From: Phoronis ovalis | Taxonomy: Eukaryota; Phoronida; Phoronidae | Direction: 5' to 3' | NCBI GenBank assembly: GCA_028565635.1 | Contig: JAOXYB010016187.1 | Location: forward strand, 8,473 to 36,439 | Length of the DNA stretch: 27,967 nucleotides | Shown here: piece by piece, positions 1 to 24,100 of the stretch | How positions within the stretch are numbered: the first letter of the stretch is position 1 | Layout: the number at the start of each line of letters is the position of its first letter | Program-made: the position numbers and the translations under genes | The notes under the pieces: generated by a model | What the model was told of the DNA's origin: nothing | The model's input: the letters and a program-made list of their open reading frames with translations, nothing else | Database searches by the model: none

Positions 1-17
1 GAACTCTCTCTTTTCAG

Positions 18-189
18 TGCTACTGTTGCTAATCTTCAGCAGAAAGTCGAATTACTAAGTGCCAGCAGTACATTGATGAAAGAAGACCTTGCCATAGCCA
101 AAAATCAGACATTATCCTTACAAAATGAAAATCAGATCCTCAAATCGGAAAAAGAGCAAGTTCTTATGACACATCAGAAAAAATTAGAG
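18..189 (+). CDS. RUFY exon a: coiled coil
   Basis: The exon follows a pyrimidine-rich acceptor (ctctcttttcag) and ends at a GAG|GTGATT donor, which is weaker than consensus. The first base completes a codon split across the upstream intron, then 57 codons follow, starting [13 protein letters not shown] and including [12 protein letters not shown]. This matches the central coiled coil of RUFY1/2. No start codon belongs here; upstream exons are outside the window. Confidence 0.92.
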
Positions 190-3100
190 GTGATTATCTC
201 ATGTGTCCTAAAGAAAGACATATCAGAAATTAATGGAGATCTTAGTTAATCTTTCTATTATTTAAGATTCTTCTTGAGGTAGTTTTGATATATGGTACCT
301 TGTGCAATAATAGCCACAGTCTTCTTGTTCTCTGTTTATCTCATATCTGACAAAATGAAATAACAAAGTTATACGTTGATGCAAATGATATTTATCCACA
401 TCAAAACTAATTTGTTTGATTCATTCACTAAAGTCCAGTAGTGATTGTTGCCAATCGTATATGTTTCAACAAGTTTACAAGCTCTTATAATATCACAGGA
501 TGAAGAAAATTTTACTCTGAATTATTTTCTTAGGGAATTTCTGTAAATCCATATTATTTCAAATCTAGAAGTACTAATTCTACAGCAAATAAAAATGTTT
601 CACAATAGGTGGCACTGTTAGTTAAGAGCTATATCATATTAAGAGTTGCTGATCTCCGATTCTCCACTGTTGAAAGTTTTATTGTTTTAGCATAGCCCAC
701 TTGCTAGCCCTAAACATAGTCCACGGAGAAGTCCTAAGAAAGCTAGTAAGGTATCTTATATGTGAAGCATGAACATCTTCTGTTTTAACTGTATGTTGTA
801 ATATTTTGTTTTCAGTACCTGCAATATGTTACATCACATTTATTATTTGATAAAATATGATGCTTCTGAGAATTTCTATGCGTTAAAGGATTCTATTGAG
901 TTGAATGTTTACTTATATGTACAATAGCTTGATACTTCCTAGGTGGAGCTGGTGGTACAGAGCTGTTGTGTCTCTAATATAGCAGGTTGTCATGGAAACT
1001 ATTTGATAGGGGTGTTTCTAAATGAAATTGATAATTTTGTAGTGAAAATATTGTTTTTTCATGAAATACTAAATAGACTATTTGCATACACTTGGTGTAG
1101 CCACTGTTTTGATCCCCACATGAATCGAAATGATCATGGAATTCTGGTTTTGTTAATGGCATCATGCAAGCACACAGGCAGCTGCATCTTTGTTCATTCG
1201 CAAATGCAGCGATCACGACAGTAGCTCCACCAAGTGCATGCAAAGTAATATATTGAATGAAACGCTTTGTAGAATACCGATATCTCTGCAATATCACTTT
1301 TCCATATATTGCTTACTGTTGTTCACTTAAGTTCACATACCCAGTTAATGTATGTGCTGACACCTATTGGTTTAGTTTCTGAAAGGCCGTTATTGATAAC
1401 AATGCATGTTTTAAAAAAGCTGTTTCCTGATTTGATTTAAAATTTTGGCTTCACTTGTGTTTTCTTGAATCTCACTCTTAAACAAACCTAACACTGTTTT
1501 AAATTTACTCAAATAATTAATAACTGTCCTTTGTTAATTCTGAGTCTTTGTTATTGTTTTCATTTTTTTTCATTTCTTTTTGCATGTTTGTATATGTAGT
1601 CAGCCCAGCTAGACATTGACACTGAACGCGAAACTTACCAGATGTCCAGAGCAGGTCTTGATAGTTTATATGCCGAAACAAAGAACAAATTGGAAGATGA
1701 AACGGAAATGAGACTTGTGAGTGCATGAACACCTTGTTTTTTGTACAATTAGCTTACTAATTACTTCTAGGTATGTTCTCCAGGTAATTCTGATAGTATT
1801 TAAAAATACCATTTTATTTTGAACCATATCTCGAACGAAGGTTGACTAATATTATAAATTATTCACATCTTCAGTCACTGTTGATGGTTGACTTTTATTA
1901 AAAATACTAATACTATATAATATTTTATTGATTGAACTTCAATTTAAAAAAGCTAGCTTACCATGAGTTTTTCAATCTGTTTTTGATCCCTCCAGAAAGT
2001 ATTATGGTTTGCCCTAAAATGTGACTTCTTGCCATGTTCTTCTTTGTACCCTGTGTCCTTGATGGCAGGTATGAAAATAAAGTTAGTTGACTTTGTATGA
2101 TTGTTCTAAATGAGACAAGTGAGATTTAGATTAGATAATTTAATACCCCTACTATTGTGTTTCCTTGTCCTTATTAGGGGTATAGGATTGTGATGCAACA
2201 AACCTAAAAAAACAGTAAAGTATCATTAATAACACTTGTCGAGAATGTTACATATCGATGCAAATAAAGCATAATAATGTAAAACACACTGTGATTTATA
2301 TAAATTGTTAAATAAGCTGTTATTTAAAATGATCTTTCATATAACAGGATGTTGAAAAGGAAATGCAGTTACAGATTAGCATGAAAACAGAGATTGAAAT
2401 GGCGATGAGGCTACTAGAAAAAGATGCTCATGAAAAGCAAGATACTATTGTATCGCTGAGAAAGCAACTAGAAGAGGTGAAACAAATAAACATTGAAATG
2501 TATAATAAATTGCAGGTTGGTACCATTCTATGTATTAAGTAACTAATGCTGAATTACTATACATTTAGGACCAGTCCTATGATCTCTAAAACCTTGCATT
2601 ATTTATGGCGTGAGAAGCATATCCATTCGCATAGTTAGTTGCTTTAAAATTTGTTGTGTAATCTTGTGAAGAAAGTTTGTATGAATAAATTTGAAAAATA
2701 CAAGTTAAAATCATCTGTCCCTGAAACTGGGATATTCCACTAGAATTCAGTTATGGAACATTCATTACATGGCTGTTAGTACAGCATACTTGACTAGACT
2801 TTGATATAATTTCTATCACTTGCGTGAATTTATGTGTCTCAAGATGCCGCTATAAAAATGATAAATTCGCGTATTGGAGTAATAAACCTTGCTGCTTGAG
2901 GAAACTGGGTGAATTGGTTGCCGAGAACTATATTATTATTGTGTAAGATATATTGGTAATTTATCAAATTACAATAATTAGACACTCTGTATGTAATTTG
3001 GAGTATGATATCAATAGAAAGTATCGGTTGGCTAATTGAGTAATAATTAATCAGCGGTTTGGAAAATGATATATCAAAAAAGAGCTATTATTCTTAAAGT

Positions 3101-6100
3101 TAAACCAACATCTAGTCACTTATTGTTATATGTTGAGAGGCTCACAGCGCGCAGATTTTATGTATTTTATTCTTAAGATTGAAGCCCCATTCTGAATGCC
3201 TATAAACAGTCTTGTGGTTATAGGTTGTTTATTTCAATTCATTTGGGAATATAAAATGAATGTTAATGTTTGCTTGGAAGTTTGCTATAGTGCACTGCCT
3301 GCTTAGCAAATCTCACATAATCTTTCTTAGCAACCTTCTAACATAGAGATTTACTGTTGTTTCAAAGCAAACTTTCTGCTTGGAAACATTTAATTACATT
3401 TCTTGATGCCCCTTTTATATCACAGTAATAACAATGACGTCATTGACTTTTTCAAATATGCTCATGCTGTGAGATTTGTAAAACTAAAAGAATTGACCGA
3501 TTTTAATAAAGATTAGTATTAAAAACACATACTAAGATTAAGGTTGGATCCAAATGTTGCTCAGAGGTATTTTGCATAGTTATCACTGAAACATATCTGT
3601 CGGCTGGGGCAGATAATTTGGTAAGGCAGACCCCCCCCACCCCCCAAAAAAATAGTATTTTAAATCAGTTTCTATCCTACAGTATTAGAGATTCTATTAG
3701 AATAGCATTTATGTTACTTTTATGGTAGAGCCACTCGTTTTCCAAATAGAGACTTGCCCTCCAGTAAATTGACTGTACCCATTGTTCATATCATATCAAG
3801 TCCTGTGCAACAGAAAACTACAGTGTCAGCTAGTATTAAGTCACAAAGTAAGGCAAAGAAATAAACAACAAGATTAAACTGCTAATATTAGCTGTGGTAA
3901 GACTTATCGTCAGTTTAAAGCAATTCTCTTAGGAACAATCAGTTTGAATTCTGTTCAAAAACACAAATGTATTAAACATTTATTTTGGAAAAAATAAGAG
4001 TACTATTAAAGAGCCGAATTCATGAAGTTGTGCAAACATTGTCCCGTGTTATCTGTACAGGGATAGTTATAGTGGGACTAGTAATTATAGTTAGCAATTT
4101 TTCACTATAATGTTGATATGTTATAAAGAGTACACTTTTGTTGTATGAAATTGAATATGTTTGCACTGTGCAGGAAAAATGTGAATCAGCAGATTATGGT
4201 TTCTGTTGATTAGACATTTCTTTCTTTATAATTGAACTGAATGCAAAACATTACTTTACAGCTTTGCCAGGAGTAAGAAACTACTATAAATCATGTAGTA
4301 GTGATTGTTAAACGATATTTTTGTTCCATACACTTGGTGGCACTGTGAAACAATTTCTGATAAGTAGTAAATTATCCCCCCTCCTAAATTCCTCTTCTAG
4401 AAATCAAAATTTTGAAAAAATACCAACTAGTATCTTGAAAATACAACAAATACAAACTTAAGCCTTGTACTAATTATAAAAGTTGTAGTTTTGTGTTTAT
4501 TCAGTAAAAAGAATCAAAATTAAATGCCAAAATATTTATTTTCAATTATTATTCAATTATAATTACTATTTCATGCTACTATGCAATCATTTTGCTTTCA
4601 TATTGATTACAGTGTCATAAAAAATAAGAGAATAATATTTGCAATGTTTTAAAATGTCATTACTGATAACTAAAATATCATATATGATATGTAAAGACAA
4701 AGCTACAACAGTGTACTTAAATTTTTTGATTAACTTGTAAATATTACTAGTCATATTTTAGCTAATCAGTTCACAACATTTCCAACAGTGTATTCATTCA
4801 TTCATTCATCCTTTGTACATTTCATATAAAGTGCGTTCCATTCTTACTTAATGGTCTGTAAATTCAATGTTACTTGAAAATATTGTCATTCTGTGCATTA
4901 TCCATTTTGTACTTAGAAAACCAAGTAAGCAAAACACGTGCATATTCCCATCCACATTCCATTGATAAAAATAAGCAAGAAAGACTAGACAGTCATTTTA
5001 TAGCTGCCTCTCCATGTTGATGAAGTATTTAATTCCAACGTATCTCAGCATCATCAAATTGTGGCTTTTCTTGCAAACATTTTAGGTCAGACTCTTTCAA
5101 CTTCTGCAGCTCGTACTGAAATTTAAAACAAACCAACTGTATTCTAATATACAGTATAACCGTTAATAAATAAAACTAAAGTGTTGAAATTTTACACTCA
5201 ACTTATAAATACAAAACAATTAAAAGGACAGAGAAGCAGTGTTCAATATTCAAAAAAATGAAATCTCATTACCATTTTATGTGGCGAGGGGTATTAACCA
5301 AAATTCTTCGAGTAATACATATTTAAAACTTGAATTTATTTCTGGTCACTGTGGAAAATGCAATTAAAATGGAAATTTGTAGATTTTTGTGCAGATTGTT
5401 ATCAAGAACTATATATCTTTTTTGTTATAAAATAAGAAGTTTAAACAGAGAACACAAATTTCAGGCTTGCTTTTCAGAGCTTTCAATATCATTTTGATGA
5501 ACTGACCGTGGCTTTGAAGAATATAGTAAAAGAAACTTTTCAAATTTAAAACGAATGAACTAAAATGAATATTTGTTGAGTTCATTACTGCTCTTGACTA
5601 TGCCTGTATTTATGCTACAAAAGAACCAAACTAATTAACTTTTTTTTTCCACTAAATGATTTTTCAGTTCCACAAATTCAAATACAATAAAATGTATTCA
5701 ACAACGACTTAGAAATAAAAATGAATTATGTATCTTATTCTATGCAGGTACTAAAAAAGTCTCAAAATGTATCATTATAAGTTCAATCCATAGTTATGTC
5801 TAATTTAATCAATGTTAACTTGAAATTCAGAATTTCCACTTGTAATTAGTTTCTGTTAAAATTTCCTGTGGCTATTCTTTGAAAGGTTATTTAATAGGTC
5901 TCACCTAATGGAAAGAGTTAAACAAAGAAGTCATTCTGGCAGTGCGTGTTAAGCAAGTTTTAGCATCTTCCATAGACGTAATCGAATTTAATGAACATTT
6001 TTAGAAATAGTGTAATTAAAAATTTTGTCAGAATTGGAATCCCCTCTTACGTTTGCCGTGTTGTTTAAAAAACCTCATGAGAGTATCGGCATTTGATTAT

Positions 6101-9100
6101 CAATTGCTTAACACGTAAATGGTACCTTCACAGTAATCTATTCAATGTCGTTGTTTTGCGTGCTGCAACCCCTTCCTTATTTGGCAAACTTATGATGTAA
6201 TAGCTGTATTAGCGAATCAGAGATATCTGTATCTGTGCATGTTCTTATTTCATTAAATACAACTGAGAATGCTACTGTTTGGTTTGTACCCATCTGTGTG
6301 TTTAATTAAGTCCCTTAATCTATCTCATCAAATTTTGGAATGTAGACAACTGACAACTGCACAAAAAAGAAAGGTTACTAACAAGACATGCGATAAGTTG
6401 CAGGACACAAGTACCTTTAACATTTAACCCTGGTAGAGTTTTAAACTTTCGCATCTTAAATGTAAAGGAGTGATGTGTAGTCTGCAATTGGCATCTAAAT
6501 TTACTCGAAGTAAATGATTATTTATAATAATAATTATTATTATTATTGTAATAATGGATTGCACATTTTATTATCGGAAGAATCCATTGAAGATGTGTCT
6601 TTTAATTTGCTGTATAACTCAGAGGCTGTATCCACCCATCCTAAGAAACGTTTCAAGAGGGGATACTTAAAATTTCCCAGGTTATAACATCATTTGTTCC
6701 AGTCTAGTAACTGAGGCCCCACCTTACCCGTTCCCGTTTCTGTATCGTTACAGAGCTCACGCCTTTAATCACTTGGCCTTGGGAATGCTAAAACATGGTT
6801 ACTCTTACCTCTAGAAAGTCTGTTAATAACTGCCGCATTGTTTGTCGCATAGTTGCTTTAGCAGTTGAACAGTCTGATGTGGTTAAGCTTGCCCGCTTGC
6901 CAGCAGGGGGTCCCCAGCCTTTACTATAGTGGTAACCTTGTGCATGAACTTGGCATACTAATAAAATTACCATCAGTGCTATAAATACTTCTATGAATGC
7001 ATGATTCTTCATATTTCTAGAAAAATAAATGACAATTATTCATTTCTTTAGTGTACATTTGGATACAAATTTAAAGTTTAGAGATCATCTCAAAAGTTAT
7101 CACAATGACCACAGACATATAGTGTTTCGTATAAGGCGCAGGGGGTAACATCCACCTATGTTTATGGTTTAGTGCGAAATGAAAAAATCATGCCTAGTAT
7201 ATATATAATATTTAAAAACATTCCTTTAACGCACCCCCCTTTTGAACTGACAGGAAAACACAAGCACATCCCCCTTTGGAACAGAAAGAATTTTTTTTTG
7301 TTTACGTCACTTATTCCTATATTAAACACTATACGTTTGTGGTCATTGCGATAACTTTTGAGATGATCCCTTAGTTAATGAAGTAATCAAAAAGAGTTTC
7401 TTTTAAATGTCTATATGTCCTGTTTAACTTTTTGAAACTCAACTTTTAGTTACAAGTTATACCCGAATGGTTGTCAAAGTATTATAGTATATTGCTAGCA
7501 AGCTACCAATAAGCCTCATTTGAAATTTCCGTCTAAATTTACCTCTCTGTGCTTGTTACTGTCGTGAATGTTAGTAAAGGTAACAGGCACATAGTGTTTT
7601 GACTGTAATGACAAACTTTAATATCTCCTGGGACTACTGTTGCATGTACTCTTAACCTGGGCATTGTGTGATTGGCTTAAACTTAATGTAATTGTCAACA
7701 GTTGCCAATGACTTTGAGAAAGTGTTAATTAAATTTACAATTATTGCTAAATGTAAATTTTTTAAGGTTATTTTTGCATGATTTCTATTTCCATGTATGG
7801 GTTAGTAACTATGTTGTCATTATTTAAAAGAGGATGTCATAGAATTAAACAGAATAATTATTTGTTTAAGTTACTATAGTTAGTATCCTGTAGAATCTCC
7901 TTAAATAGCTTTTGGTTATAATGATTAATATTTCTTTCCTTCATGTGTCTATTTCTGGTTCTATTATTTTTCTACACTTGGATGAATGCTATAATTAACC
8001 AGTTGTAAAGCATTCATATTGTGGTCTGGATATTATTAATTCTTTTTAGTTTTGGTAGAACATATATATTAATATATATATATGTATATTCCAAATCAAT
8101 GCCTGTACTTCCTGGCACTGATTTAATCAACATTTGAAAAAACACATGTTTTACAAGGTGGTTAATTACTAAATACATTTAAAAGAAAGATGGCTAAAAT
8201 TGCAGTATAATGTTATGAGCAATGCTTTCTGTTTTTAATATACATATTATGTGATGGCTGGAAGTGCAATAGGAAAGGTGTGCAACAAGACACATACATT
8301 ATTGAGCCTATAAGTAGCCACTATGTACAATATTTATTTTAGGATCCTAAAAACACCATTTTAAAAGAAAAATCTGCTATGTTATGTAGTTAATACTGTT
8401 TCTTCATCCTACTTTTTCAAGAGATATTGCTACAGTTAAGTAATACTTGAACTGCTTTTGTACAAAATCTATTAAGATTGTATTACGAAAGTAATGATTA
8501 AAGTTTGCCTCTGGGTTTGGTAATTAGCAGGTGACACTGATGTTTTGCGTTCTGAAGCATCTGCCTTGATTATTATTTTATTACCTTGTGATTCCGGTTT
8601 TAAAATATTTCCTTAATTTTTGACATGCCCAGTATCAAAGACTTATGATGCACCTGTCTGTTAACTATGTTTTCCGTCACATAAGTACATGATGATTAAG
8701 CAAATCATGACAAGTCATTAAAGTAAAAAAATCTCTTTTCATATGATTCCATCATTGGTACACCTCCCTCTTCTAGATTTTATAATTGCTGAAAATTACA
8801 TTACCATTTTCAATTCGATATTTTAAAGTATAATGTACTCTTACAATTATGCAAACTCTGTTTTCACCATAATATGGATTTTTCCTTCACCTTCTTTTAA
8901 TTATTATAAACAAAGACAAAAACTAAGAAAAGAGGTTTATAAATTTTTTGCTCACTTTGGGAATAAATCACAGAATTGCTGGGAATTTTCCCCTTTTACT
9001 GCAAACCTAGTTGAACTTATTCATTGCAAGCTCCATTAGTTTGTAAACCGTGGATAATCCCACCTTTGGTAAACATTATTTTTCCAAGAATTTGCATTTT

Positions 9101-12100
9101 CCAAAATTTGTAACCCCCCAAAAATTATATGAATCTGAGATTTTTTACCATAATTCTGTTTTGCTTAGAAAGCTATATGAAATTGACCTAAATCAGATAT
9201 ACATATTTGGGCCCCAAGTGATTTTTCGGTTTCTACAAGAATACTTGCTGATATGAATATTGTAGGAACTGAAGAATTCAAGCTGATATCTGTGTATCAA
9301 TTTTTATTTTATCTGCATTTAATCAGACATTTGTGTTATAATGTTAGTAAGAAAAAGCACAGATATTAGTTTCGTGGTGACATTACAGCAAGTTCAGTGC
9401 GTGCAATAATTAAAAAGATTAGCTTAATTGATATTATGTTTCTGCTTAAGTATTAATTTGTCCCAACTGCTCACTTATAATACTCAGTATGCGAACCTCA
9501 TCACTGTATGCAATCATTAGCCCACATGTGACAAGCAATGAGCCCACGTTCGGAAATATATTGATCTCTTTATTGAAACAAAAAGCTATACTTAAATTAC
9601 TATTATATTAAGATAATTGTTAGTTCGTTAATAAAGTAACCTATTGATTATATAAGTTCTTACAGTACAGCAAAGTAAATGTCTACGAACAGTATTCAAA
9701 TCTTTTTCTATTAACGAACATGTTATAAGCAATAAATAAATGTCAATAAAATGTTAAACATAAAAATAATGACTCCTGCATAATATACCATATTTTTGTA
9801 ATGTACATTTTAGATGCTATAACACCTTTATCTATAAATCTACATAACATGCATATGAAATTATTTTTCTATTAAACTACTTGAATTATATTTTTAAATT
9901 TTGCTATATAATTATATTCATCACTGTTATTTTGGACTGTTGCTTGCAGACTGAAGGTTAAGTTTAATTGTGTTCACAGTGATAAATAATACCTTTGGAA
10001 AAAGCCCTAAGACAGTGTCTTGCTGACTATTTAGCAAGTCCTACTGTTTATTGAGATGTTTAATGATTAACTTTCATGTTTGTTATCATCGAAATATAAA
10101 AATGTTGACAATTCAGCTCACTAGATCCATGGACATGTAAATATATTGGGAGCTGTTTTTTTCCCAGTCAGGCATATAAATGTAGAGATAAATATTTAAA
10201 AAAAACGTAAGCTTTAAAATTTATTAAACTAAAATAAAAATTGTTTTAAAAAATTTAATTGAAAAAAAATAATTTAAAAACCTTCCCACCTGCAATTTTA
10301 CGTAAATCACATTAATATGAAAATCTACAAATCACAATCTCAGACATTAAAACTAAATTTATGCATCATAATTGAAAAGTTGTTTTTTTGTAATGTAAAG
10401 AATTCGCATTTTTTAAGCAAAACAAACTTTCGTAATCAAATGCAATAATTTGAAATCTCGCCTGTTTGAATAAATGTTAGGCATATTTCTGCTTTGCACG
10501 TACAGCTTTGTTGCAGTTATGTTTTTTGAAGTTTGTCTGTAAAAGATGGTAAGCTGATTTCATAATCCTGTAACAGGAAGATGAAGTAAATTTTCCTTCT
10601 TTTATCATATGACAGTAGTCAGCATCTTTCAAAAAAAATGTTTACTTTCATTAGTCTATATTTTAATATAACTAGCTCAAAATAACTTGAAAAAAGAAAA
10701 CTAGAGCTGAACTAACTGAAGATAACATTTAACAAAGTGACTTTTAAATGATTGAATAAAGTAACTTACATACTATGGTGTAACAGCTTAGTGCTCAAAT
10801 GTCTTTTAAGTCTTACTATAAGATACTATAAAATTATTAAACTTTTATCCTTTTCTCCTGCCTATGCTTGACTGTATAGAACTTGAGCAAGTTTTTTTAT
10901 TATATAGTTTTCTAGATCATCACATTTGTTGTCCATAGTCATTAATTCTAATTATACCTGGAAGGGACTGTTTCAAATGTTACAATACCATGTGGCAATA
11001 TAGTAATGTTATACAATAGTGTTGTAATTTAAAGTAGCAAATAGTGTTTGGCACGTTTTATTCCCACTTATACTTAAGTTAAATTTTAACACATCAAATA
11101 AAGATAGACAGACAAAAGTATACATATTTTGAAAGCATACTACTTAAACTTTTTTAAATCTGTGATTTCTTTTTTGAGGAGATCATGTGACCTGTATAGA
11201 CACCATTTTGGGTAAAAACTTTAAGAATTGTAATATTTCTTGAAAATAAAATGATAGGAAATTTTGTCTTAAAACATTTCCTGAAACTGTGCCATGTTAT
11301 TTGATCAGCAACTCATTAAGTTATTCGACATTATGTAAGCAAGAGTTGTTTATAGGTTTCTTTGCACTGTGTTACGAATTTAAGTACTAGGTAAATGGAA
11401 TTCATGCTATCTTTTCATTTAAATAGCTAAAATTTAACTTAAAGTATATAGTGTGAATATAGGGGGGGGGGGCAACAATATTCGCTACCTTAAATGTAAA
11501 GCATTCTTTTTAGTAAAATTTAATCGATATTATTTATGAAAAAGCAAATGCCTTACATTTAAAAAGGTAACCTGTTTAGGAAAAATATTTGCTGAAATAA
11601 TACATGTCTTTATTGCTGAGATTGGTTAAAAATTACTTTGTTTCAGATTTCTAAATTTTACTGCTTTGTGTACTTGGATACTTCCCTGATGTCATGTTCT
11701 GTGGTTTTTATGTTTTTTGTCAAATATTGATAAAATTTGGATTCTAAATGTATTACAAATGCTATTACTTTTATGTAAGTAAAATGAATCAAATGATTCT
11801 TTAAAATGTGAAGACCAATTATAATATATAAAGAAATTATATAGTAGAATGTATTTTTGTGATGTTCCCTAATATAGAGTGTATTTAAAAGATGTACTTC
11901 AAAAAGATTAAATACCTGTACAAGGGCTACATTTAAACTTAGTGCACCATTCATGTACACATAACTGACATTTTACCTATACATATTTGGGGTTGTAAAC
12001 CAATTATCATAGACCCTGGAATATGTATACAGATTTTTGTGGCCTAGCCAATAGTGTAGGTAGACATCATTGGTGACGTCCTCAAGCTAGTTATTCATCA

Positions 12101-15100
12101 TTTGATATTAGCAAGGTACTATGGTTAAAGTCTTCAGTTGTCTTCAGTATGGTAATTACCACTAATTATTTCCTAATATAATTACTAGATTTATGACCAC
12201 TAAGTGACATCAGATATGCAAATTAGTTATTGTTTTGCACCATCTATAGCGCATTTGAACGGATATGCATAATTTTTTTTTGTCTTTTGTAACATCAGTA
12301 ACCAGAATGTAGTGCATCAGAGTCAAAAAAACACAGAATGTTTTTTAAGTTCTGTAGAAAAAAGTAACAGTTAAAATTTAAATAAATACATTACAAAGCA
12401 TGCATCATTAGTAGAAGCGTCAATATATCAAATGTGGGTGCTTCTTCATTGACCCAAAATTATACTTCAACGTTAAAATTGGTTTTATGAGATGTTGTGC
12501 ACCATTTTCTGTGAAGTGAATATACCGAAGCATGCGGCAAAATCATTGATAATCGATATACCTGAATGGCAAAATCACTGATTGTCGGTATAACTCGGGC
12601 CCAAAAAACCAACCCTGCATGATCTCCTGCACAAATTTAAATACTTCGTAAAAGTTGAGTATATTACTGAGAGATTAGTCCTAATAATAATAAGCCCAAT
12701 ATCTGACATATTGATCATAATACTTTCCTAGTAAAAATTTATCGTAATTTGAAATTAACAAAAACTCACCCATCTATTCTACCAAAATAATGGAGTGGAT
12801 TTTTCCCGCCACTATTTTGTATAGGTGTAACTGTGACCGTGTTGATTACTTTCGTTGTGACGTAGATATATTTATACTGTCAACATTGTATGTTTCATGC
12901 CTGCTGCATACTTGTACCTTGAACGCCTTCTCAGTGGCAGTTCCTAGCATTTAACCGAGACAATATTTTCAATCCAAGCATTTGACATGGACACTAACTG
13001 TGATGTGCTCGCACCCAGACGCTATCACTAATTGTAGCGTTTAACCCAGACACTAATTCCGAGCTATATTTCTATAGCATGAGGAATTCCTAATCTCTAT
13101 GAGGACCGTATGAGAATCGCAAGGATCATTGATGAAAATTTCATATAATAATACTTCAGTGGTCTTAATTTGTTATTATCAAGTGAAGAAAGAACAAATT
13201 TACGTGTGTAACATAGTCAGATGGTAAAAATTCAGTAAAATTTACAGTTGTTTCAAAGTTATTGAATTAAAACTTGTTAAAATTCAACAACTGTTGTGAC
13301 ACAAGAAAGATTTATACATTTATCACTTAATAATAATGAATTAAGGCCATTAGAGCATTGTTGTAGGAAAATTTTCATTGTATGGAGGAGCTTTGTTAAT
13401 CTCGAAAGATGATATATTTTGACTAGGAAGGTGTTCAGACAAATACATGAGATATTGGACCTATTTTTATGACTAATCTTCTGAATACTGAACTTTTATG
13501 GAGTAATTTAATATGTGCAGGTCACTCAACTCTGGGAGTCTTTTTTTTGTTTTGTGGTCATTAATAAAAATGCTCTAGTCTTGCATTCCAGTAAGCATTA
13601 AGTCTATTAAATTGTACTAATTAAAGTAAGGCTAAATAAGGCCATTTTAGGATTGATTTGATAAATAACAAACACCTTAATGTTCGGATTCTTAAATTAA
13701 AGTTTTTGAAGTACATGGAGCAACCATATCTTCACTTGGTTGACTATCCTTAAGTCAGAGTTGCTATTTACTGCTTTGTAATTACTTCCCCTGGGCTGTT
13801 AGTAGAGAGAGTATAAAGTGAGAGTAAGTATATATTTTTCCTATGGGGAGGGGGGTGTTTAATAATGGAAGGATTTGCCATTAATTTAGGAAATATAATT
13901 ATATGGAATAGTTATTTTTTTGATTACTCTGCATGTGTAAAAATCTGAAAAGCGTACGTCATAATTGTTATGTTTTAATAATGATTATGTAAGGGACCTA
14001 CGATGCCCCAAGATACAATAATGTATACCACCAGATCAGTCTGATTAATATGCTGACTCCCAGGTTTTTAATTTCATCAGTCTTCTTGGTACTTTGCTTC
14101 ATATAGTGGTATTTCTAGATATTCTATTTGTCTACTAGTTATTTCTAATCCTTTTCTATAATGCCTTCGCAAGTTCAACAATATGGACACTATTTATTAT
14201 TACAAGTACCACAGTGGGAGTTTAAAGAATCGAGTTCAAGTTCAATTACAATTAAATAAGAAGTGTGTTTCAGTTTCTACTCCATCATTGCAGATATGAC
14301 ACTGTCTATCACAAATCTCCGGATTTCTAAATCTATCTACTTCAATCATCAAGGGCAATATGCCTGTTCTTAACTGGAGCAATATAAGTGATCTACGTGA
14401 TCGTGGTTGAGACAAGTCTATATGATCTCAACTTTGGTTTCTTTTTCATTCATCTGACCACAAAGTACATTCAATTTCATGCAGATAACTTTGAACAGAT
14501 CTCAAGTCAATAGACTCTTCTCATGCATGGCTGTTCCATGCTCCCTCCCCCTAATACTACATGTGCAAACCAAGTATACATTCAATAGGAATTATAACAT
14601 ACTTATCAAGATTAAAAATAATTGTTAGGTTTAGAATTTTTTCCTGTTGATATGATATATACTGTAGTATAATACATGTACGCAAAAGGTTCTTTTTCTC
14701 AAATTTTGTTTCCTGATTTTTTAAAGTCAGATATACCTGTATTTGTAATGTAATTGATTGGTAGTTTGCACCTGTATAAAACAGGAAGTAGAGGGTAAAT
14801 CAACTGATGGAATAGCTGTGAGAAGACTATAGTTAACTTGGCATTAAGGAGTTATTAACTATATAGACCTATGCTTGAAAGGATATTCCTAATTTCAGCT
14901 GACCAGTTTCTACCACATGTGGAGCAATCATGACATGAACATTTTCTTTGTTAGTCTTTCATCATCAAATTTAAGAAATCTATTTCATAAATGTAACATA
15001 TCAACATTTCTAACTGAACTGAATTCCAACCCTATACTACCATTGACTGCATGATTTGAACTGAATTTATGAACCCCTAGAAAAATCTTGCAGCTCTATT

Positions 15101-18100
15101 TTGAACAATATTCATTTTGCATAAAGGTCATTTGTTCTTACCCCCGAACTGCTGAACAATAGTCATTAATTGGTGCAGCACATGAATTAAATAATGCACC
15201 ATATGTATTAAAATGCTTATTTTTGAGTTTTTTAATTTTTTTATCGAAGCCCCTAGTGCCTTTCCTGTTGAATCAGATAAAACTTTTACTGTAGTTGTAT
15301 TGTCCGAAAATTCGTCACAACTACCCCAAGGTAATTATATATGTCTGTGTATTCTAAAAGATCGAATGTAACCAAAATGAAATTCGTATTTTATTCCTAC
15401 ACACATTTTTAGATCTAAAATGCACAATCTGAGTCTTTTTTTTGTTAATAAGGAGTCTCCATTTTCTACACCAAATACAGACAATATCTAACATACTGTG
15501 CAATTATCCTGATGCAATTAACACTATGTCATCCATATGCAGTAATATAGGTATTTCAAGATGGCCCAAGATTAGAATTTTCAATTCCAACGTTAACATA
15601 AAGAGCAAAAATTGTCTATGACAGTACAGCTTCTTGTTTCACCCCGCAACTGGTAAAAAAAGTCAGTATACAAATTATTTATCTTCAGGCAGGATTGAGA
15701 TAAGGCATATATTCTTTTAATTGCATAATAAAATTTTCCATCAATATTCATATTTTATAACTTATATGGCATGGCATATCTATCTATCCAATTAGACACT
15801 TTTTGCATAAAATGTTGTGAATGTGGATAACCCTTTTTTCTTTCTATTCCTAGTTATATGTGAGAGTAAACGCATGATCTACACACACCCTACTATTACT
15901 TTGGAAACCATTCTGTTCATCTACATATAAATTGTTACATTCCATAAATATACCATGGTAATTTAGAGGCACTCGCAAGTCACAGGTCGACCCNNNNNNN
16001 NNNNNNNNNNNNNNNNNNNNNNNNNNNNNNNNNNNNNNNNNNNNNNNNNNNNNNNNNNNNNNNNNNNNNNNNNNNNNNNNNNNNNNNNNNNNNTCATCTA
16101 CATATAAATTGTTACATTCCATAAATATACCATGGTAATTTAGAGGCACTCGCAAGTCACAGGTCGACCCATTTGATAGATGTAGTCCATAAATTAGGAA
16201 TCATACCATAATTGAAACACTTTAATTTGAAAAAGATATGTCAGCACTATCATTTTTAAAGACCTCATAGGTTATATTGTCACAACCAACAGCTTTACCA
16301 AACTTCAACTTACTAACCACTTTCTGTACCTCATCAGTGCTCATATACCTAATATTTAAATCAGTTGATTCTCTTTGAATCAGTTGATTCTCTTTGAATC
16401 ATTTTGGACTGTAACTCAGATTTATGTTTCATTACAAATTCATAAAAATGTTGATCAAAATGTGTTATATTTGTATCATCTTTTTCCGAGTACAGAGATT
16501 GGAATTCAGATTTCCAGCTATTGAATACGGCTTGAGTATCAGTGATCACTTGTTCATTTTCATCATATACTAGCTTCCATTGATATTTGTTTCCTGGATC
16601 TAGGTCCAAGTTTTTTAGTGTGGTTCCAGAACTCGTTTGGATTAATTCATCTATCATACTATTTCTCAAATATAATCTTTCTACTCATATGCTTTTTGTC
16701 AATTGAAAGTGTGCTAACCAAAACATATCATTCTGTTAGTTTCTTTTTTGTATGTTTAGGACCGCTAAATTTCATATAAACCCTTTCTTTTTCCAAGCTT
16801 CACTTAAAGCACTATTCCAATAATGGCTTAGGAGGTTTACGATTTCGTAGATTTACTAGAGAAGTCATGAAACTTTAATTTCTGGTCTATCGATGTGTAA
16901 AAATTTTTCATATAGTAAAATAATATGATTGTAAGAAGTTTAAAAGGTTGCAGCATATTTGGTAATTCAAGCTCCAGTTCTGTGTTGTCATTATGATCAT
17001 ATATTTTGGAAACTAATATTCCTCCCATGTTTTAGCATAGTTCTTACTGGTACAAATCAGAGATTAGCAAACTAATCGTTGTATTTCCCCTTGTATTTTT
17101 AAGCTAGACAGCGTACATTAATTGTTTATTTTTTAAGATAAAATTGTCCTTTGGGATACAAGTGAATCATTTAGATTTGATGATAATTTTTTTGTGTGAC
17201 AATGGATTCATTGTATTATTAAACATATATGCTATTTATATTGCAGCATATTGCTTTAAATATCATTTCTAGTTTTTGGAGAATAAAAATTTTAATCGAA
17301 TGGCTTTCCACAAAATGTTGGATATGCAGAACATATCTCCACTCTTTTATACCTAAGTTGTAAAAAGCTTCAAGATTTTATATGTACAAATACTTGTATT
17401 GCTACCTTAATACAGCACTCAAAGTGTACACAAATAAGCAATGTCATTAGACTATTTTTATGCTAGCTGTTAGTTAACTTATATTTTAAAGTAATTAATA
17501 TTAAATGTTTAGATTATTTTAAGTCACTCTCAGATCTTTATTTAGCCATTATTGATATTATACTTGCTTGAGTTGTTCTGTTAAAAGCATATTCCTGCAG
17601 ATCAAAGTTAATAGCATAAAATTAATAATTACTAAAGTGAAGTTTTTGTGTATATTATGTTTACTAACACTTCAGCCTTATTATAAGAGGAATACGGTTA
17701 ATGACTTTGGTCATTGTTTGCTGTTTTAATTACCTATTGTGTAATTACTGTTTAAAAAATATTTTATAAAATTGGAAAATCAAAGCTTTTCATGAACTTT
17801 CACATCTGATCTCTTCCTAGGCTTGTGAAGCTTCCTTGAAACACAAAACGGAGCTGGTACCAAAATTGGAAGAGAAAAACCAGCAAATGGCAGCAGCGAT
17901 GAAAATAGCAGAGGCAAAGTGAGTGTTATATGTTAATTATGGTGATGCTTCCATCTGAATAATTCAAATTTATTGATTTTGTGATGTTGTTATTGTTTTT
18001 TTTTTTACAAGTAGGTATACAAACAGGCTAGATATTGTATGACTGGTCAGGATTTTTTTTGTTTCTCCATTCTTTTTATTACATTAAGCCTGCTATAATA

Positions 18101-21100
18101 CACTCAAGGAATGACAACTGGTGAATAAGTTAGATATTTTGTTTTGTGTACTAGGTGAAGTGAAGTTGTACTTGGTTGAAGTACCAGTGATTATCCCCTG
18201 GGTTTCACTTTTCAGTAATTTATCCTTTGATGTCCACATAAATAATAGTGATTATTATACATTTGTCTTGAAATTGTTAAAATTTTGTTCCTGCATTAAT
18301 TTGTTAGTTCCATCGCCTGTATTGTTTAACCTCATTTTATGGCTAAATTTCTTTTTAACTCTTTTGTTTAATCGTCCATCTTTTTTGCTAACTTCAGTTT
18401 TCTAAAATTTCAAGCATCCATATTTGTTAAAATATTTTGCAGAATGCAATGATGAAATGAAGTTGCACTCACAATATGTAGATGTAAACTTAAGGAGTCA
18501 ACAAAATACTTTCTATTTGAGCACACTCCTACTGAAAATACCCAAGATTATTTTTAAGTTTTACTTATAGCAGGAGCTGAACAACAAATATATTAATAGT
18601 GTTCTTATATCCTGGTTATTGAACGGAATTTACATTGTAATTTATGGAAATTTAAAACATGAAATAATTGTTGTGAAAATGTTTGACTTTGAATGTTTCC
18701 TAAATACAATAAATTTGATCAATTTTATTATCCAGATTAAACCTGTATGAACATCTAGTTTCTAGAGGTGTCCGTAATCAAGGAACATCAGAATAACAAA
18801 ATCCTACTACACGTGACGTGAATAAAGTAGCCTGCTGAATATAGTCTTTTGACTAGGAGGAAATACACTCCAGTTATACTTGTCCTCATTCCTTATTGAT
18901 ATTGCCACAAGGAACTTGACAAACAAACAAGTTTAAGTTTAAGTTTTTTAAAAGTGTGTGGGAATGAGGAAATTCAATTCTCACTGAACATATTTCATGT
19001 ATAAATAGAATTACCAGGATAAAATTAACATTTCGGTTTATTAACTTTCTTCAGAAGGAAGAAAAATAATTCTTAAGGAATGTTTTGATAAGCTCAAACA
19101 TTAATTTTTATTTAAGATTGTAATTCTATTTTCTTATTTTAATTATTATAATATTTTTTTTAATTTACATGTATCTCTTAGTATCATTCTGGATCTGACT
19201 TTCTAATACTTTACTGGTTGAAATCTTTCTTCATAACTGTCTCGTTTTAGTGTAGTATTTTGGATTATATTCTATTATTCTCGAATTATGGAAATATTTC
19301 CTTTATTCACACCTAAGGGAGGGAGAAAACCTTTCAAATAACTTTAGAAACACCCAAATTCAACTGGTCAACAAATAGAACAGATAGCTGTAGATATGGG
19401 ATTCAGTTTCGAGCAGATTTAAAAGTTTTTCAGTATTTTATATGCATATTTTTGTATTATGTGCAAATTGAGAAAATATAGTAACAGCAGACAGCATCAA
19501 ATAATTGGCGAAGTCCACATTTTATGTTTATAACCTTGTTCCAATTATCTTGAATTTCTAATAGTTCAACCAGTAAGAATTGAAATTAATTTTTGTTGTT
19601 GAACTAATGTACTCAGGGAATAATTTTCTACATAGTTTAATTACGCAAGAGATGTCCTGTAATAAAAGTATAATTATAATGCAATCAATATGTATTTATG
19701 CAAAACAATTTGATAAACTATTTCAGATATAAACAAAGTGATTCTGACAAGAAAGCAGCGGAAGAGACTGCTCGGAGCTTAAGTCAACAAATGGTGGACA
19801 GAGATGCTAAAAGGTACCTGGGGATACATGTAATATGTACTATGTAATATGTAATATACCGAATGCAGGCTAATAAAAAGTCTCTATTCGGGTCTAATAA
19901 TGACTACTAACTTACTAACTTAATTACAGTTCAATAACTTAATATCATAAAAGGACTAATAGTCATACTTAAGAGGCTGGTCTTTCCAGAAACTATCCAG
20001 CCTTTTTTCAAAACTATATTATTAGTTAATGAGTTCCATGTTGATACTATTTTATATGTAAATGATAATTTTTTAACATTCTTATTCGCTCTAACTTGGA
20101 ACAGTTTTAACGAATGTCCTCTTGTATTACTGTCACTAATGGGCACCAACATTTTTGACACATTCTCATCATATATATTATTGAGTATTTTATATGTCTC
20201 AATCATGTCACCACGAAGTCTTCTGAATACCAAAGTCGGCAAATCTAGTTTCTTAAGTCTTTCCTCATAACTCAGGGCTTTTATTGATGGTATCAGCTTT
20301 GTTGCCCTCCTTTGTATGCTCTCTATGGCAATAATGAAAATATCCTCATCTAAATAAACAAAGGTTCTCCTTATCATACCCAGAATTTGATTAGCTTTAT
20401 TAACTTTTTCGTTAATGTGATCACTAAATAACAATTTAGAATCAATTACAACTCCGATATCCTTTTCATTCGATACATGAGTAAGAGAGTGTGCCCTTCC
20501 ATTGTCATGTTTCCATTACATATCATGTTTGAAACCCAAGTGATTCTTTAAAGCAGATACTGTTTCACATACACACGAATTGTGAATTGCTTCATGTCAG
20601 ACAATTCACTGTAACACCATCACTTGCTCTATTGCACATGGTAGTTAATAATAGACCATTTGCATGCACTTAGTAGAGCAACCAGTCATGGACCCAAACC
20701 TTCCCAGCATGTTGCATTTTGTGTATGAATAATGACGTATTCTCCGTGTGCTCTTGCAATTCATGCACAAAATGCTACAAACTCCACCACATCTGCATAC
20801 CGAGCCAAAAAACAAAAAAATAATCTCATCTGTGTTGGTCTAAGAAACACCTTTTTTTAATAAAAATTTATATTAGTATTTCATGCATAAACAATTATTT
20901 AATAATTTTTTCTACTACTTACATGTAGATTACGTTAATTTCAAGGTTTAATGCATTTCCAAAGTCAGGTTTCAAGAAACAGGAGTTGTATTCAATTGAA
21001 GGCTGCTGGGATTGAAAGAGTCCGACGGTGGTGCCCTCAGGTGCATGCAAGTAGTCTGTTGGTAGTGATTTCGTTGTAATTTGATAGTTTCCAGCTGTAT

Positions 21101-24100
21101 AATTATTGATACAGGAATGGCATCCAGCCATGGAGTCTGGCATTACTGCACATTTTGGTCATATAAATGGTTATGTTGTCTCGTGGCATTTAGAGACTTA
21201 TTGGAAATCTGTGCTGCAAACGTTTGAAACTGTTAACCCCTCTTTAGACAGTTCCAGTTTTTCCCCCCAATGGCCTGATTGTAGCTACTGTACGCTGTGT
21301 CTCTGTATTTATTCTAAGTGCTTCATGCCCTTGAAAATAAATCTCAAAACTTCGCTTGTGTATACTACTATTCAGATGTATCAAAAACATTGATTTTGTG
21401 AATCAAAGTCTTACTAGCAGTATTTGGGATAGTGGAAGAAATGAAATAAAGGTTTAGTTAGTGGCTAATTTTATGAAATGTATGAAGGAAATAAAATCTA
21501 TGTACACCCATTGAAAAAAGCATATTACGATATGTGTGTGTACATGTCTGTCCATCCCTCCATCACACTTTCTGTTCAGGCTGTAACTCTTAAACCATTT
21601 AACTTACTTGCGGTCACTAAATTTATGCTAAAGTTATGGGCATATCATGTGGTGTATCCTTCCTGTACTTTAATAGCAAGTGTATTAACTGTGTTAAGTA
21701 CACAATAATAAAAAAAAATATTGCAAATATTCCCGCTTCTAGGGTGTTATTCACCCTAGGCAATAGACTTATTAATTACTTGTCATCAAAAGTTTTGTTG
21801 ATTGTAACATTCAGTTGGATATTTCTTTCTTTTTCTTTCCAAATAGGAGTGCTTTAGAAACTGACTTAAAAATAGAAAAAGAATGGAGGTCAACTTTACA
21901 AAAAAATTTGGAACAAGAAAAAGAAAAGACATTACGCATTCAATCAGAATTACAGAAAATGAAAAAAATAGAGCAGGTCAGATTAAAATATATTTCAGTT
22001 ATAAAAGATGCTTGCATAAGTATAACAATATTTTGTTATTTTCAAATTATGAACTTTTATGAACTTAATTTGCCTTAATTGCCTTAAATATTTATTCTAA
22101 TTTCTAATAATTTGCTCGCTTGTTCTTTGAAGTTTATTGGGTCAGGTTCATTTAAAATTTTAATAAGCTTGACATTTGTACACTGACGGTAAAATAGTAA
22201 TTATATTAAAACATGGTAAAGGAGTAGTACGCATTAGTAAGAATAAACAATATGAAGGATGAAGTGGCGTACCACACCAAACAAGGCAGCGAAAAAACCA
22301 CCCTACACAGTAGTGGGCATTAACCAATCAAAGATACTTATACAATAGAACGTACAGCATGCCTGACAATAGTGTAATTATACCTATTGTTACTGATGAA
22401 AATTTTCTATCTTGTTGCTTTGGCTATATCTTCAGAATGATGCAAGTGATTTCTTTGAAATTTGGAGATGTAAGAAACAACAGGCTATAATTTTGTACCT
22501 ATTTTTTTCACATATTTTCCTGAAAATTGTTGCCATGGCAATCACTGTTATTTGTTTTTTAAGAAAATATGAGAAATTGTTATTTTCGTAGTAATTCTTA
22601 GTATAATAAATAAACAGTACATTATGATGTAAATTTCTATAGCAGGTAAATAGTTTAAGAAGTCATGTTTTGCCACTATGCAATGATGTATGGCGATTCT
22701 GTAGAATGGTCAACAGGGTCAGTAATAAGAGCTGCCAACTTTGGCGGTACAAACTCCTTTGTACTTCTTAACACCCCAGGATTAACACATCCAATGTTAT
22801 ATGTTCTGTTTTAGTTGATCACTTTTGCATATCTATATTATAAAAATTATGTACTTTAAAATAGTTTGTACCATTTATTTGTCACGAAATCAAAGCAAAT
22901 GGACTTACTGTTTTTACTGAACGACAACACAGTGACGTCATCATGTTAACATTTGTGCAAAAACTGTCAAACGATAAACAAACAAAGTTACTAAAATATC
23001 TTGTTTTGCGATAGATATCTTCCATGTAATGTTTTTAGTAAGGCAATACTCTAAATATTGTCAGTTTTGTAGTAAAATTAGCATATGAACATCATTTTGT
23101 ATGTACCATATTTTGACCCCGGCCAAGGACATTTTCCTCATCAACATGTTTACCTTTTATTTTGTAATAAAATGGTGATAAAGCAAACTAAAAATTAATG
23201 TAATCTTCAGTCAATAAGGATTTTAAAAAAATGTTTCCCCCAGTAATTCACATTGCCTTTATTTTAATAAGATTAACTTCCTCGGTGTTACACCACATTC
23301 ATTATAAAGGACAAATTTTCATATCTTCACACCCTCCTTTAAAGTTCAAGCAATTAAATAAACACCTGTTTTCTTACCTCGAATAATCAATTGAATTACG
23401 TTTATAAAATTTAATTGATGTCATCAATTTTAACACTTGACATTACACAAGATGTTTTCCTGTCTTTACCTGCTACCCACGGCAGGTGTTTGCTAACAGG
23501 TAAAGGGTGGATACTGAATTAACAATTAACATCAAATTTTCTTTCCCACATTTTGTTGCTGCATTTACTCAGTAATTCTATTTTCTGAAGAGTTATAGCA
23601 AATAAAACTAAATTTATATTACTTCAACAACAAAAAAAGGTATGATGATAGTATATTAGTAAACAAATATTGTCTGCAAGTAAATTTAATAGTTTTAAAT
23701 GCTGTAGTATTTTGTAACTGTATGTATAAAATAATCAATTCAGTGTTTTGTGGGAAGCTGAAACTTACAAAACTTCTAGTAGCGTAAATAAATTTACTTA
23801 TTAAACTGTGATAAACTTTTGTTATACATCGTATTTGTTTTTAGAAGTTCTTTCCTACAGCAAAAGTGCAAACAGCTGTATTTTACAGGAACATGGAAAG
23901 TTACAACATCAATATCAGATGCTGGAAACCACCTGTCGTGAACAAGAAGAGACGCTGAAAGAGTTGGGATCGCATCTGAGCGAGTAAATATCTTGTCAAA
24001 TGTTAACGGTTCTTAAAAAACATCTTTATATTTTCTGCACATTTATTGTTTTACTAAATAAGCATGTTCTTCTGCACCAGGTTTTCTTGACTATTTATTA

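Follow-up and report, generated by a model that had tools for sequence, protein, structure and literature searches.

Peptides of molluscs and annelids that were formerly named GnRH are now counted as corazonin (CRZ)-type (PMC8557429, section 13, which gives the renaming without sequences), and pQNYHFSNGWYA-amide stands among the corazonin-type peptides of these phyla (PMC8113230). Under the label 'invGnRH/CRZ', mollusc and annelid members are given as pQNYHFSNGWHPGa for octopus, pQNYHYSNGWHPa for Charonia and pQAYHFSHGWFPa for Capitella (PMC7697785). A single phase-0 intron in the coding region is typical of AKH and corazonin genes (PMC5024129, PMC10321317), a C-terminal associated peptide with two cysteines is a feature of the family (figure legend in PMC5024129), and corazonin has been reported in nemerteans, brachiopods and phoronids (PMC8557429). 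The present analysis concerns a stretch of 27,967 nucleotides (the window) from assembly GCA_028565635.1, contig JAOXYB010016187.1, in which a small minus-strand gene for a predicted neuropeptide lies within an intron of a plus-strand RUFY2-like gene. Judged from its sequence, this is, with good confidence, a functional corazonin-type neuropeptide gene of a lophotrochozoan, placed antisense in the RUFY2-like intron. It adds a member to a known peptide family, and its genomic setting is unusual and possibly ancient.

The window peptide resembles the mollusc forms pQNYHYSNGWHPa and pQNFHYSNGWQPa (PMC7697785), and it has in common with the 'invGnRH/CRZ' peptides the core pGlu-x-Tyr-His-aromatic-Ser-x-Gly-Trp and a C-terminal amide, the latter predicted in the window. 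It differs from them in Lys at position 7 and in its longer ending. In contrast to the window peptide, xenacoelomorph members of the family are described without an N-terminal Gln (PMC6188537). The exact peptide may already be among the sequences in the figures or supplement of PMC8557429; the YHYSKGW core, including QGYHYSKGW, was not found in the literature searched.

Exon 1 encodes the signal peptide (residues 1–24), the peptide (25–37), the Gly amide donor with KR (38–40), and the start of the tail with Cys48; it contains no stop or frameshift, and all processing residues are intact. The leader is hydrophobic and ends in VHA, after which the Gln-first peptide follows immediately, with signal cleavage placed by eye (Val at −3, Ala at −1). 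GKR directly after the peptide constitutes an amidation and dibasic cleavage site. A second tail cysteine, Cys81, depends on the putative exon 2. The exon 1 donor reads GAG|GTAAGA at 6809|6808. Of the 1386 GT sites on the minus strand of the window, 3, this donor among them, score at least as high under the weight matrix used. The exon 2 acceptor, TTTCAG|TACGAG, is in phase 0, the phase typical of the family (whose exact intron position is given in figures), and the joined product comprises 96 residues. The two phase-matched minus-strand exons proposed in the initial annotation were thus reproduced in coordinates, junctions and layout. Above the ATG, a 5′ noncoding exon is likely, because an acceptor-like sequence, TTTATTTTTCTAG, stands just upstream and an in-frame stop occurs at 7042, ten codons away.

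When the core was searched as the DNA pattern Q-x-[YF]-H-[YF]-S-x-G-W, the window gene was the only match in the 77,411,486-base assembly, and the backward control pattern yielded none. A protein search of the assembly with the precursor recovered only its own two exons, consistent with a single copy.

The homologue search proposed in the initial annotation failed in its simple form and succeeded in a modified one. With the bare 96-residue product, no candidate with three common five-residue words was obtained in the protein search and nothing was scored. A profile query was composed of known mollusc and annelid peptides (table in PMC7697785) and four self-made variants, set into the window tail. 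It returned nine candidates; the three that came in below E 10 were GnRH precursors from scallops (E 9.3e-4, 1.9e-3 and 3.5e-3), with the peptide part of the match arising partly by construction, since the query held YHFSNGW-type peptides. These prepro-GnRH-like proteins belong to Azumapecten farreri (P0122), Ylistrum balloti (P0123) and Pecten maximus (P0124). Like the window precursor, whose second cysteine lies in the putative exon 2, all three consist of a leader, Q..HYS.GW.P, GKRAS and a two-cysteine tail, with lengths of 100–103 residues (96 in the window). The scallop peptide has 11 residues, compared with 13 and a GPPA ending in the window, and overall identity is 38–39%. The tail after GKR aligned with the three scallop tails better than expected by chance: shuffled sequences did as well in 3, 25 and 28 of 2000 cases by local score and in 1, 6 and 1 of 2000 by global score; as the scallop proteins are near-copies, this amounts to about one test, not three.

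Several observations weigh against the corazonin-type reading, among them the silent search with the bare product and the composition of the profile query. The two cysteines are 24 residues apart in the scallops and 33 in the window, and they fall in different alignment columns. Exon 2 alone scored 16, 18 and 18 against the scallop tails, values reached by 1539, 1201 and 981 of 2000 shuffles, respectively. Among the 124 phase-0 acceptors from 6769 to 2516, the chosen exon 2 acceptor shares the top rank with two others, both of poorer acceptor sequence by eye. Because exon 2 alone gives no alignment above shuffles and its acceptor is tied, its identification is considered likely but not proven. 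The Pfam Corazonin profile (PF17308) scored the window protein at 14 bits (E 0.066), under the 25-bit cut-off. The three scallop precursors (3/3) likewise remained under it, at 16.1–16.7 bits, and the cut-off was therefore not treated as defining. A scan of the window's own assembly with the same profile did not recover the window gene; a match on contig C4414 (E 5.53) was rejected as not credible.

To these points is added the outcome of the receptor search, in which no corazonin/GnRH receptor was recognised in the fragmented assembly by pattern, query or motif search. The DNA pattern for the receptor motif CWTP[YF]Y had no match in the assembly. A self-composed receptor-like query of 243 residues gave 33 assembly matches at E 1e-6; none of the 11 translations inspected by eye looked like a GnRH/CRZ receptor, and a protein-motif scan of the loci collected up to that point found no match. 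Receptor genes of the CRZ/GnRH group are described as split by introns (PMC5024129). As a separate observation, the 7tm_1 receptor family produced at least 147 matches in the assembly, many of them covering nearly the whole profile in one open frame and apparently intronless.

The host gene was assembled from nine plus-strand exons encoding 382 residues, open across every junction (Table 1). Its product shows a coiled-coil-like stretch followed by a C-terminal FYVE finger (E 9.3e-22), and the solved RUFY1 FYVE chain matches it at 3.7e-27. The part of the gene for the expected N-terminal RUN domain would precede the window, in a tract that the assembly gives as N. Among the best 120 of 1553 matches, the top one was Lingula anatina RUFY2 (65% identical), followed by oysters and other molluscs; the named entries at the head of the list belong to the RUN and FYVE domain family, most of them under the name RUFY2-like.

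Table 1. Coordinates of the peptide gene and its host gene, counted from the first nucleotide of the window
Feature	Position	Strand	Remarks
Peptide gene, coding exon 1	6809..7012	minus	68 codons from ATG at 7012
Mature peptide codons (predicted)	6902..6940	minus	13 residues; sole family-core match in the assembly
Peptide gene, intron	5116..6808	minus	phase 0, 1693 bp; GTAAGAG...TTTCAG
Peptide gene, coding exon 2 (putative)	5029..5115	minus	28 codons and TAA; Cys81; identified from splice-site and cysteine evidence
Candidate splice acceptor TTTATTTTTCTAG	7017..7037	minus	stops 4 bases short of the ATG
RUFY2-like exon A	1..189	plus	upstream part beyond the window, reads N
RUFY2-like exon B	1600..1716	plus	
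RUFY2-like exon C	2348..2515	plus	5′ border of the host intron
Host intron	2516..17820	plus	15,305 bp as assembled; contains the peptide gene
RUFY2-like exon D	17821..17918	plus	3′ border of the host intron
RUFY2-like exon E	19727..19813	plus	
RUFY2-like exon F	21847..21976	plus	
RUFY2-like exon G	23889..23983	plus	
RUFY2-like exon H	24456..24582	plus	start of the FYVE finger
RUFY2-like exon I	25569..25706	plus	remaining FYVE finger and stop

The antisense position of the peptide gene wholly inside a 15.3 kb RUFY intron, as described in the initial annotation, was confirmed in this assembly. The true length of the intron is uncertain, because a 100-base N gap lies within it at 15994..16093, leaving exons A–C and the peptide gene on one side and exons D–I on the other. 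The RUFY frame stays open over the gap, and on either side of it the product can be aligned with Lingula RUFY2, as one continuous protein; this supports the join, which was therefore accepted. The same sequence flanks both sides of the gap, and a reverse-strand open reading frame (15850–16155) carries a 19-residue repeat across it; the assembly may have duplicated an edge here. Putative remnants of reverse transcriptases of the LINE (long interspersed nuclear element) type were noted by eye in the RUFY introns, in open frames 19931–20434 and 16361–16669, both on the minus strand. In a Pfam scan the former had no match, and the single match of the latter was too weak to be credible (13.4 bits against a cut-off of 22.9).

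The two genes are linked in scallops as well. In Ylistrum balloti, the RUFY2-like gene (P0018) and the prepro-GnRH-like gene each lie on a contig 465,439 bases long, and in Pecten maximus the RUFY2-like (P0014, P0019, P0047) and prepro-GnRH-like genes each lie on a sequence of 60,076,705 bases. A shared contig was deduced from the identical size in bases within one species, not from accessions, and it is a near certainty that each pair is on one contig. Both scallop GnRH matches with a stated contig (2/2) therefore share it with a RUFY2-like gene, none being stated for P0122. The Pecten unit is chromosome-sized and carries little weight alone; the Ylistrum contig is under half a megabase. Since Ylistrum and Pecten are both scallops, the two count as one independent lineage. 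The initial annotation's suggestion that the arrangement could serve as a synteny marker gains support from these common contigs.

A tree of RUFY proteins was built from 18 rows, namely the window protein and 17 of the 120 listed matches (the fetched P0026, P0046, P0080 and P0104 were left out). The window protein branched without resolution beside Lingula and another row, outside a supported nine-row mollusc-type set (98/96). The source animal is accordingly placed as a lophotrochozoan, probably not a mollusc, and because it stands outside the mollusc set, the linkage of the RUFY2-like and corazonin-type genes is read as probably ancestral to it and the scallops. No report of RUFY linkage with a corazonin or GnRH gene was found among the titles and beginnings of abstracts searched. 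The text of PMC10321317 on synteny of the GnRH/CRZ region mentions neither RUFY nor FYVE.

How old the nesting itself may be is a separate matter. The scallop data demonstrate linkage within 465 kb, not nesting, and it is an evenly balanced question whether only the RUFY neighbourhood is old, with the scallop gene outside RUFY and the nesting specific to the lineage of the window animal; this would be compatible with a functional corazonin-type gene. A stronger proposal, that the antisense nesting predates the split from molluscs and was kept because transcription or regulation of both genes is coupled, is unlikely. Old neutral linkage, rather than a regulatory device, is the more likely explanation of the nesting.

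An assignment of the gene to the GnRH/AKH paralogue group instead of corazonin was weighed next and appears quite unlikely. The precursor layout and phase-0 intron are common to both groups, annelid proto-AKH genes are organised like corazonin genes (PMC5024129), and the ending GWGPPA is reminiscent of the starfish GnRH ending GWGPGa (PMC7697785). The scallop precursors moreover score higher with Pfam AKH (18.2–19.9 bits, cut-off 22.9) than with Corazonin, both matches being weak. The window protein, in contrast, matched the Corazonin profile only, weakly, and not the AKH profile, and its QxYH[YF]SxGW form fits the mollusc and annelid peptides now called corazonin (PMC8557429, PMC8113230). Two lines of evidence were set aside. 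Pfam AKH gave no match over the window's own assembly, which is uninformative, 14 of 14 controls being silent too; and intron number was not used to separate CRZ from GnRH, because PMC10321317 and PMC4923880 give opposite intron counts for the deuterostome genes. Under current naming, peptides of this group are called corazonin-type. The core of the peptide, the layout of the precursor, its relatives in scallops and the phase of the intron all support the GnRH/corazonin assignment of the initial annotation, for which corazonin-type is the sharper name.

It is very unlikely that this is a relic without expression or a recent pseudogene. The weak support for exon 2 would fit such a relic, as would a mobile element at 7078..7373, whose end is roughly 65 bp from the ATG on its upstream side. 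Against it stand the uninterrupted exon 1 with its strong donor and complete processing residues, and the fact that no second copy was found in the assembly; the mobile element would sit in a 5′ intron if the 7017 acceptor is used. The element itself is a short non-autonomous DNA transposon with 54-nt inverted ends that are 89% complementary and, by eye, TA on both flanks. Copies in the assembly show 79–100% identity (40 of 279 candidates scored, own copy included), many with a longer middle.

A chance resemblance to the GnRH/corazonin family, conceivable for a short motif in a small protein with no direct homologue candidate, is extremely improbable given one core match against 0.07 expected (both strands, assumed 31% G+C), its position, with a signal-peptide-like leader immediately in front and GKR four residues further on, a tail similar to the scallop tails, and the linkage to RUFY in the two scallops whose contig is stated.

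Elsewhere in the assembly, a mitochondrial contig of 15,713 bp (C1114, invertebrate code) was noted, with COX1 identified by Pfam and the other genes named by eye. One strand carries ND1-ND6-CYTB-ND4L-ND4-ND5 and the other COX3-ATP6-ND3-ND2-COX1-COX2, an order presumably reminiscent of chitons and phoronids; ATP8 and the rRNA genes were not located on it.

The shortness of the peptides confuses the naming of GnRH and corazonin genes, and a long host gene with traceable orthologues provides an independent marker of orthology. Through RUFY2-like linkage, any chromosome-level lophotrochozoan genome could show whether a gene called 'GnRH' or 'AKH' is a corazonin orthologue. The same genomes could show whether the antisense nested pair has persisted since the lineages of the window animal and the scallops parted, in the Cambrian or earlier.

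Secretion, cleavage at KR, amidation from Gly, pyroglutamate formation and action on a corazonin-type receptor are features of the family. By analogy, the peptide gene would be transcribed from the minus strand in neurons, starting at a promoter of its own and probably including a 5′ noncoding exon, and the precursor would enter the secretory path and be cleaved at KR. Gly38 would supply the C-terminal amide, Gln25 would turn into pyroglutamate, and the mature peptide would act on a corazonin-type G-protein-coupled receptor. As for function, the best guide is probably corazonin-1/GnRHL1 of Platynereis, a member of the same superfamily that takes part in growth, maturation and energy balance; its knockouts grew and matured late and had altered energy enzymes (PMC6969523).

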